A stretch of 64,000 bases of DNA from Cyanidiococcus yangmingshanensis (Eukaryota; Rhodophyta; Bangiophyceae; Cyanidiales; Cyanidiaceae), in NCBI GenBank assembly GCA_013995675.1, contig VWRR01000007.1:310001-374000 (forward strand), given 5' to 3'. The stretch's first letter is position 1. The number at the start of each line of letters is the position of its first letter. Below the pieces are notes generated by a model. It made no database searches. It was not told the DNA's origin and saw only the letters and a list, made by a program, of their open reading frames with translations. The position numbers and the translations under genes are program-made. Shown here piece after piece: positions 22,287 to 25,781 of the stretch.

Positions 22287-22939
22287 TTACGGCAGCTCGA
22301 CATCACCATCCGCTGCTTGAAGAGAGCGCCCGTTCGAGTCGGTCATCGGGTGGGTCGCTTGGGAGATAGGTTGCGGCGCGACTGTTGACTGTGTCGATAA
22401 AGCGTCCACTGGGCGGCTTCCGCTGGACAAGTCCCTGATGCCGCCTGCCGAGGCTGCATTGACGCTCTGTGACTGCATTGCAAGATTGGGTCGTATCGGA
22501 GGCGACGCTCTCGTGAGCGCACAATTGCCATCGATCATCATCTCTTGATTGGAGGCGACGACAGCAGGTTGAGGTTTCGCCGCTCGCATCGAGTTCGGTA
22601 ATTGCATCACGGGCCCAATGGCGTGCTCCTTGGCTGTCGTTCTGTCGAAGGGCGTCTCCTGCGGTGACATCTCTCGGAGCGGTCGCCTTCTCGGTTGGCG
22701 TGTTCTTAGCCACCAGATGCCAGGGCCGTGGCTCGCTGCGATCCACCAGTGGCAACGAATGGGGATGCGTTTGCGTTGGTCACGCCCCTCAGTGCTTCCG
22801 GTGCCTATCGAGCACGGTGTATTCGTGAAGAACAAGCCCGGGCCACGAGAGGACGCAATCGACCAATATGGCCGCTTTGAGACACTTCAGTTCCACCTGA
22901 CAGCTCTCTGGTCCCGTTCCCTGGAGCACAGGCGCATGG
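22287..22939 (-). other. Possible C-terminal continuation of the RFTS gene
   Basis: Just past the RFTS-gene stop, the minus strand stays open in shifted frames. One runs about 57 codons beyond the stop (starting NGNVANDHAPVLQG). Another, 22287-22835, encodes a Ser/Gln/Pro/Ala-rich low-complexity tail (for example NLAMQSQSVNAASAGGIRD). In a window with many one-base excesses this may be the real protein end. Equally it may be chance open frame. No domain recognised. Confidence 0.25.
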
Positions 22940-25463
22940 TCATTGGCCACATTGCCGTTTGCCTATATGGTGATCCCATTTGATGAGAATCTTTGGGGGT
23001 ATAGCGGCGACACGTTCGCGGTTTTGTTGACGCATCCGCTGAGCCGCTCGTTGCTGTCGCCGCTGGAGACGCGCTCGTTCGCGCTGAGCTGCAGCCTCAA
23101 TTTCACGACGGAGGCGACGCATGAAGGCATTGTCGCGCATCTCTGGTCGATCCAGCATCTCTGCTTGTTGAACGAGGAACTGAGCTTCTTCGATAATTTC
23201 CTCAGGAGTATAACCTCGCATTTCGCCATAGGGCAAAGCAAGCAGTTTGCTGAGATTCCGGAAACTACATGCTTTGGAGTTTGGAAACGATGCACAGAGG
23301 ATACTGACTCGGATCGCGAGTTCAAACTTCCGCCTGGTGGTCACATAATGCGGTTCATGGGACGGATGCGGCGTGACCAACTTGTACCACGCCCGATCTG
23401 TCCGAATCCATATACACACCTCACCGTAGTCAATGCACCACTCGAGGATGCGACCCGTGCGAATCATGATTGGCCGTAGCTTCACACTACCTGCACCGGA
23501 GCCTGGTACCAAAAGTCCCTCTGCAACAAGCGAGCGAGCTGCCCCGGGCACGGGCGGTCGACGGGCTGCCACTTTCTGGGATGACTGTTCCAATTCCAGC
23601 GAATCGAGGCAAGCATGCTCCCCTGACTCTGCATCCATGATACGGAACCATGTGAGCACTCTGTATGGGAGCGATGCAGTCGCGTCGAGCTTCCCGGCAC
23701 CCTCATTTGCGACGCCATCCTCGACATAACCAGACAAGTTCATCTCGGGCGGAATGTCCTCCTCACAAGTCAGTGTGTTCTCGGCAGAAAGCGAACCAGT
23801 CGCCGAAGAAGCGGCGCGCTCTCCTTGCTCTGCTTCCGGTTGGGTTTCGTTCCGAGCCAGGACTCGTTCGTGCCGACTCTGACGAGCTTCCGCCTCTGCA
23901 CGCTCACGTTCCGCAGCACGAAGAGCCCGTTCAATCTCCAAACGCTGACGCTTGGCCAGGCGCTCTATCCTTTCCAATTCGCGCTGGCGTTCCTGCTTCT
24001 TCCCGCCGTCGCTGGCGCTCCAGTTCTCGCTCTTCCTCTTCGTGTTGCTTCCGAAGCTCCTCTTCCCGCTGCCGTGCGAGTTCCATCTCCTGAACCCTAG
24101 AAGACGTTCGTTTCGTCGCGAGCAAACGTTCAAGGCGTTCTCGCCGCCGACTTAAACGCTCGAGTTTTCGACCGTGCTCCTCCCAAGTCGGAAGGAGTTC
24201 TCGTTCGAGCCATTGACGAAGCGCACGCTCTGACGAGCGTGGACGAGCGTCGTCCAGCTCTTTCATGAGGTCTCGAAGCGACTCTGGTCCTTCGGCAGCT
24301 ACTACCCAACCATACTTGTGTTCCGGTTTTTCGGACTTTCGTCGATGGTTAGCGCTTTTTGCGGTTGGAGCACCTAGCTCCCCAAACCATTCTCTATAAA
24401 GGCGGCAGTTATCATCAAAATACCAGTAGAGTGCACCGTATCGATCCATACCGACCGGCAGAATGCGCAGATCATCATGGCGCAGTTGTCGCAGATCCTT
24501 CACGTACCTGTGATCCTCGTCTGGGTTGCAGAGTACGTACTCACAGAGCGCGTACAGCAATAGGAGCCGTTGGCTCGCACTCAGTTGCAGAAAAGCCTCC
24601 CAGCCACCAGACTCGAGAGTGCTCAACTCTGGAATATTGCCACTCGGGTTGCTGGCGCTGCTCTCCTCCGAGCAGAGCCCGAGAGCCACCATCTCGTCAA
24701 AGTGTTGTCGAAAGAAGCGAACAAAGAGCGGAAACCATATAGAATCCGCCCGCTGAACCCAGTCCGCTCGCTGAAGCGTAGCGGTCGTGCGGCTCGTTCC
24801 CTGCTCGACCTGATGCCCGCTGCTCGAACGAAAACCGACCAAACTTGCCATGATTTCGGCCAGAACTGGAGCAAACTGAGGTGCTTCTAGTGCATGTTCA
24901 AGTTCCATCGGCGTCAAATCCGGTATTCCCAAGCGCTTGGAGAAAACTTGTAACAGTCGCCAGGTCGCCGGTAGTTGCCACATGTCGACAGGTTGCAACT
25001 CCTGCACGCGCCGCCTATCCAAGCCTAAAGACGACACATTGGCCAACGCGCCATTTCCTGAGCATAAAGCCAGTCTCTGCCGCGGCTCCTCACGTTTCAA
25101 CTCCTTTGAGCGTCGTTGCTGGCGCTTGCTTGCCCAGGCAACGTCCTCTTCCGAGACTGCCTCCGAGCTCGATTCCTCACTCTCCGTAGAGAACTGACTC
25201 GAATTCGAACTCAAGGAAAGAGAATCCGCCGGCAAACGCCAGCGCGCCCTCCCGCTCACCACAGAAGTGCTTTCAGAACTCGAGCTGGAGTTGGCTTGTG
25301 TTCTCGAATCGGACAGCCGCTTTGCAGCCCGAGTACGCCGGCGTCGCAACGACTGCCGCTGATCGCTTCTTTCCTCCGTATCGCTCAGCACGTGGCCCTC
25401 GCCTTTCAGCACACCAGAGATGCTCTGCACTGCACGCCGGGCTGCTTTCCGACGAGGTCGCAT
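22940..25463 (-). CDS. Chromatin protein with DDT, WHIM and DNMT1-type RFTS domains, apparent frameshift
   Basis: From the ATG at 25461-25463. First comes a basic, Ser-rich region with acidic Ser/Glu clusters. Next is a DDT-like helical domain (about residues 160-260: MWQLPATWRLLQVFSKRLG...WFPLFVRFFRQHFDEM), then a WHIM-like segment (WEAFLQLSASQRLLLLYALCEYVL, then LPVGMDRYGALYWYFDDNCRLYREW), and a long Arg/Glu coiled coil. The frame then changes: one surplus base in CCC at 24002-24004 lets the coiled coil run on. Last comes an RFTS domain as in DNMT1 (about 23340-23670: LPYRVLTWFRIMDAESGEHACLDSLE, then ILEWCIDYGEVCIWIRTDRAWYKL, then its helical lobe ending EEAQFLVQQAEMLD). No methyltransferase domain follows. 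DDT/WHIM modules belong to ISWI-type remodeller partners; RFTS binds ubiquitylated histone H3 in DNMT1. The role here is inferred: a nuclear histone reader or remodeller subunit. Confidence 0.75.
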
Positions 25464-25650
25464 TTCGAAAAGAGACCGCAATCGTTATTCGAACCGAGGT
25501 TACTTGTAAGAATAGTAACGCTGTTCGCCCGCGCTTCGAAGGCCACCAGTGCACTGTCCAAGATGAGTGTGGCGCGATCCGAGTGGCCATTGGAGACGTC
25601 GATGGGCGCTGCGCGGATCCTGTCGCTGCCGCTGCCGCGAGCACTGTAAA

Positions 25651-25691
25651 AGTGATTATTCATAAATACACGATCAGTAACATCGATGGAT
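25651..25691 (+). repeat. 41-bp direct repeat, copy 1
   Basis: Begins AGTGATTATTCATAAATACA and ends ACATCGATGGAT. It is identical to copy 2 at 25741-25781, with a 90-base period. The spacers after each copy are only partly alike (both contain AGATCT), suggesting a decaying tandem duplication. Confidence 0.9.
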
Positions 25692-25740
25692 ACGTATGGC
25701 CTATTCGGTAATCGATACGAGATCTGAACGGGTCTGCACC

Positions 25741-25781
25741 AGTGATTATTCATAAATACACGATCAGTAACATCGATGGAT
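25741..25781 (+). repeat. 41-bp direct repeat, copy 2
   Basis: Perfect copy of 25651-25691. It lies in the AT-rich divergent promoter region of the RFTS and V-ATPase c'' genes and contains the palindrome ATCGAT. Confidence 0.9.

Follow-up and report, generated by a model that had tools for sequence, protein, structure and literature searches.

The RFTS domain, which takes its name from replication-foci targeting, has a known regulatory role in methyltransferases of the DNMT1 type, where an N-terminal zinc-binding cysteine cluster is one of its features. DDT/WHIM modules characterize accessory subunits of ISWI-type remodelling ATPases, such as ACF1/BAZ1A, WSTF/BAZ1B, Itc1, plant DDR, CECR2 and RSF1. 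In the heat-loving red alga Cyanidiococcus yangmingshanensis, we found a minus-strand gene in which an RFTS domain follows a divergent module that appears to be of this second kind. It lies in a stretch of 64,000 nucleotides, hereafter the window (NCBI GenBank assembly GCA_013995675.1, contig VWRR01000007.1, positions 310,001 to 374,000), which corresponds to C18:310001-374000 of the 12.07-Mb, 20-contig assembly that was searched as the genome; positions without a contig (C) or locus (L) label refer to the window. The explanation we favor, and to which we give just short of an even chance, is that this single gene encodes a chromatin protein of Cyanidiales, likely an accessory subunit of the ISWI type, and that its RFTS engages a histone tail, most likely that of H3. 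What is new is the way in which known domains are combined, and not the kind of domain. A preliminary description of the locus, made from the sequence alone, knew of no such fusion, and we likewise found no description of an architecture joining an RFTS and a WHIM-type module in the literature searched, most subscription journals lying outside that search.

The gene is read in two overlapping frames, the first of which gives residues 1-510. Frame A (23997..25463, minus strand; open reading frame (ORF) and tblastn) encodes a charged low-complexity N-terminus, a helical DDT/WHIM1-like region, a WSD (WHIM2) beta-meander and the start of a linker. Frame B, a second part of 397 codons with its stop at 22940, encodes the remaining charged helical linker, the RFTS and a helical, basic stretch after it (22973..23992, minus strand; tblastn). 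The protein of the corresponding NCBI gene, F1559_002822 (P0003, 821 aa), is 99% identical to the frame-A ORF over 87% of that ORF, and is named in UniRef by its RFTS domain. A protein search that used the RFTS part of P0003 retrieved four relatives, P0004 (JGI, 972 aa), P0005 (JGI, 1083 aa), P0006 (ENA, 1000 aa) and P0007 (Cyanidium caldarium CDCA06G1874, 990 aa), with overall identities to P0003 of 74%, 62%, 49% and 49%; these and the window gene, represented by P0003, are the five orthologs discussed below. No protein of Cyanidioschyzon merolae 10D was among the five proteins from this search. The same architecture, which the preliminary description proposed to look for in other Cyanidiophyceae, occurs in four relatives, one of them Cyanidium caldarium, and the algal origin that it assumed is borne out, the genome being cyanidiophycean. 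According to the protein records, all four relatives carry both halves in one predicted protein, and we therefore rejected a reading as two genes. In tblastn, P0004 matches frame A at 25235-23997 and frame B at 24001-22973 (residues 414-756), and P0005 matches frame A at 25463-23997 and frame B at 23992-22973 (residues 495-846).

At the change from frame A to frame B (23995..24025, minus strand), a frame-A REE abuts a frame-B QERQRELER, as in REEQERQRELER of P0004. The NCBI model places a 58-nt intron close by, at 24048..24105 on the minus strand, which we read as coding: its frame-A translation, SSRVQEMELARQREEELRK, aligns without gaps to a counterpart in each of the four relatives (SSRVQEMELARLREEELRK in P0004), near-identical in P0004 and P0005 and more diverged in P0006 and P0007. 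The intron was rejected because it would delete about 19 codons that all four relatives keep, and the break near 24.0 kb is for this reason best read as an assembly indel, a single base probably sufficing to account for the frame change with nothing lost. Introns are very scarce in C. yangmingshanensis, 36 having been reported for its whole genome (PMC9812998). A pair of separate genes, or a gene decaying in this strain, would also produce frame changes at two places in the window, but appears very improbable given the single predicted protein of each relative, since neither frame A (25463-23997) nor frame B (23992-22973) is interrupted by an in-frame stop, and since, of the 14 SNF2 loci in this assembly (18 profile matches, grouped by position), three show like frame changes, with gaps of 19, 23 and -8 nt that are too small for introns. 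The ISWI gene itself (C16, L028 1030-4232) extends across three overlapping ORFs, which suggests that indel errors are frequent in this assembly.

The RFTS is the best supported part of the protein. The Pfam RFD profile (PF12047) matches all five orthologs over its cut-off (42.9-48.8 bits versus 22), and in the genome profile search the DNMT1-RFD core of the domain lies at 23303..23488 on the minus strand (C18:333303-333488, E 3.6e-11, 46.2 bits). A structural model was predicted for 22964-23779, and its residues 1-186 (23222..23779, minus strand) were matched by Foldseek and VIA-align to the beta-barrel lobe and part of the helical lobe of DNMT1, MET1 and DIM2. All 16 Foldseek matches at E<=0.001 belong to these three proteins, the best being the ubiquitin-bound structures 5WVO, 5YDR and 6PZV. 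By sequence, the PDB entries that score highest are DNMT1-type chains of 1507-1574 aa (9peb, 9pec, 9m5x, 9v4o), three of them named as Arabidopsis MET1. By profile match and predicted fold alike the domain is a genuine RFTS; the model shows the beta-barrel lobe and, of the helical lobe that the preliminary description had recognized, at least a part.

One tryptophan, which phmmer pairs with DNMT1 W464 when P0006 is aligned with bovine 6pzv_C, is invariant in the five orthologs, and the W465 position is a cysteine in all five (WC; W656-C657 in P0003), where human numbering presumes that chain 5wvo_C starts at residue 351. None of the five thus carries the W464-W465 pair of the DNMT1-type, H3K9me3-reading RFTS, in which both residues are reported to serve H3K9me3Ub2 binding (PMC8093215). 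A cysteine cluster of the zinc-binding type was not found either, C547 being the only cysteine within residues 541-596 of P0003. The ubiquitin-interacting motif (UIM) is located in the N-lobe of DNMT1, and a UIM-like stretch at residues 368-383 in RFTS2 of MET1 (PMC12474915). The equivalent region falls at the start of our model, since the VIA alignments pair model residue 1 with MET1 368 and DNMT1 370-378. Near this position the five orthologs have in common E-x-x-[IV]PPE[ML]N, after which they diverge in a loop; this loop (model residues 17-35) is of low confidence, and no residue pairing with the DNMT1 UIM was obtained. The RFTS of DIM2 is reported to bind an H3K9me3 peptide despite a differing sequence at the ubiquitin sites (PMC11315935).

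The evidence for the N-terminal half is weaker, and points to a divergent DDT/WHIM-type module of which the WHIM/WSD part is better supported. The helical region, DDT/WHIM1-like, matches KIAA2026_hel (PF23450) at residues 164-312 (24528..24974, minus strand; E 4.9e-6 on the window ORF), a family found in four of the five orthologs at E<=10 and over its cut-off in one. The WSD/WHIM2 (D-TOX E) motif follows at residues 333-421 (24201..24467, minus strand; PF15613, E 0.0012, 19.4 bits, cut-off 25.4); it is matched in all five orthologs, with E values of 2.5e-5 to 1.4e-3 and none over the cut-off (best 24.8 bits), and the genome profile search puts it at the same place in the gene. WHIM1 gives a weak match in two of the five, and Pfam DDT gives none in any of the five at E<=10. 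The DDT and WHIM segments claimed by the preliminary description are therefore borne out in part: the WHIM side and the helical region find matches, those to WSD below the cut-off, and DDT itself was not recovered. The predicted secondary structure runs from helices through four strands over the WSD stretch to a long helix. When a profile built from the five orthologs was run on 752 ORFs from the window and other loci, plus three named ORFs, it picked, after the gene's own copies, the WSD part of the canonical DDT and WSD gene of this genome (E 0.0028; next ORF 0.12). A model of the N-terminal half gave no Foldseek match at E<=0.001 and no recognizable DDT/WHIM structure among the 50 VIA matches listed, a result that does not exclude membership of the DDT/WHIM family. 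The charged linker that follows is 117-124 residues long in the four relatives. NCBIfam yielded nothing useful for P0003, P0005 and P0007, and our literature search on KIAA2026 found nothing on its KIAA2026_hel domain.

No methyltransferase is attached to this RFTS: a C5 DNA methylase domain (PF00145) has no match in P0003-P0007, in line with the preliminary description, and no methyltransferase or BAH domain was found. PF00145 has one match in the genome, elsewhere (C14:794516-794893; L003 874-3108), in an ORF whose best PDB relatives are DNMT3A/B; a DNMT1 elsewhere in the genome was therefore rejected. A Cys-rich region ahead of the DNA_methylase match in this ORF looks ADD-like by eye. The single DNMT3-like match is consistent with papers that describe a DNMT3 from C. 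merolae and from Galdieria sulphuraria (PMC9998398; for C. merolae also PMC9861306). The SRA domain of UHRF1-type proteins had no match in the genome, in a search without a positive control (the 14 control genomes are prokaryotes and none matched); its absence is thus only suggested, yet the same search tool did find the eukaryote-type RFD, SLIDE and DDT here. At C16 the genome encodes an ISWI-type ATPase with SLIDE, and its histone H3 keeps K9, K14, K18 and K23. Pfam DDT was found in the genome search only at C14, where a canonical DDT and WSD gene (L027 2762-5483), split over two overlapping frames, is a second candidate for an ISWI partner.

RFD was matched twice in the genome, once in the window gene and once in an ORF on C19 that encodes an RFTS-bromodomain protein (L002 ORF 1057-2598, 513 aa; RFD match at C19:632488-632649; Bromodomain E 3.1e-9). 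The two RFTS domains are closely related, as the second scores 71.7 bits (E 2.5e-21) with the five-ortholog profile (next unrelated ORF 0.26). With both detected RFTS domains outside a methyltransferase and no DNMT1 found, this genome could serve as a natural test of the function that RFTS has on its own. We can only tentatively suggest, with clearly less confidence than for the subunit itself, that RFTS outlived the enzyme in Cyanidiales: DNMT1 and UHRF1 would have gone, and RFTS would have been retained, would have undergone duplication and would have been put to new use for reading histone tails, once within a remodeller subunit of the WHIM type and once within a bromodomain protein, reading H3 methylation, or ubiquitylation set by another writer, and acting on nucleosomes without maintenance DNA methylation.

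In the explanation favored here, the N-terminal module would hold a remodelling ATPase, probably the ISWI encoded in the genome, and the helical linker would join this module to the RFTS, behind which the repeat-bearing tail described below follows. The cleft of the RFTS would dock on a histone tail, most likely that of H3, standing in for a PHD finger or a bromodomain, and the subunit would in this way tie the ATPase to nucleosomes with a reader borrowed from the DNMT1 family. It is the WHIM/WSD type of the module that suggests the coupling to remodelling. If so, the protein would show a new type of reader on a remodeller-type subunit. C. merolae 10D, a related alga, is described as genetically tractable (PMC13353863).

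The main competing idea, which we consider unlikely, is that the RFTS acts as an autoinhibitory lid, closing over the WHIM/DDT module or over the ATPase until freed by a chromatin signal. RFTS is autoinhibitory in DNMT1 and, as RFTS2, in MET1 (PMC12474915), and the length and charge of the linker could permit such a fold-back; the protein, however, lacks the methyltransferase partner surface, and the RFTS of DIM2 is reported to support DNA binding rather than to block it (PMC11315935). Close behind it, and similarly doubtful, comes a reading of doubly ubiquitylated H3 as in DNMT1, which would couple histone ubiquitylation to remodelling, as the preliminary description had proposed. The ubiquitin-bound state of the best Foldseek matches, the presence of H3 K14, K18 and K23 in the genome, the conserved PPE[ML]N motif near the UIM position and the binding of dual mono-ubiquitylated H3 by plant MET1 RFTS domains (PMC12474915) are all in line with it, but the variable, low-confidence loop after the motif and the absence of matches to an SRA/UHRF1-type writer, in the search without positive control mentioned above, argue the other way; ubiquitin reading is thus a possible, unproven activity of this RFTS. 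A targeting of the protein to replicating chromatin, for which the name of the domain and the biology of DNMT1 speak, seems to us rather improbable.

The coding region extends beyond the frame-B stop, and so past the coordinates 22940..25463 given in the preliminary description. At least one further frame change occurs between 22973 and 22883, and a C-terminal tail back in frame A (22287..22883, minus strand; tblastn and ORF stop at 22287) is matched by P0004 (residues 784-899 at 22883-22548, E 4.1e-25) and P0005 (residues 878-944 at 22877-22677). The true end of the gene, at about 22287, was hidden by this second frame break near 22.9 kb. With these corrections the observation made in the preliminary description holds, and its interpretation is in part supported. 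The tail carries two copies (YWSIASSRGPGLFF and HWWIAASHGPGIWW; 22710..22868, minus strand, from the frame translation) of a motif W-x-[VI]-A-[AS]-S-x-GPG-[IL], which is found twice each in P0004 and P0005 and three times each in P0006 and P0007. All five orthologs also have a similar W-x-VAA-x-G within their WSD part. Upstream of the gene start lies a 48-nt direct repeat (25644-25691 and 25734-25781, 94% identical), which is not a dispersed element, since no further copy of its 40-nt core was found in the genome (<=3 mismatches).

Compared to the described systems, the protein resembles DNMT1 (human and bovine, 5WVO and 6PZV), RFTS2 of MET1 and DIM2 in the RFTS fold, the Pfam RFD match and the tryptophan paired with W464, and differs from them in lacking BAH and methyltransferase domains and a zinc-type cysteine cluster, in a UIM region that could not be paired, and in the cysteine at the W465 position. 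With the DDT/WHIM subunits of ISWI it shares the helical region, a WHIM1-like helix, a WSD with four predicted strands and a long helix, whereas Pfam DDT is not detected, WSD stays below the cut-off, and the opposite end carries an RFTS as its reader instead of a PHD finger, bromodomain or zf-4CXXC. KIAA2026, which we take to be a bromodomain protein, provides the top-scoring model for the helical region, the likeness being confined to that region. The RFTS-bromodomain protein of the same genome likewise has no methyltransferase domain in its ORF and shares the RFTS subfamily, but there the RFTS comes first and a bromodomain stands in the place of WHIM/WSD.
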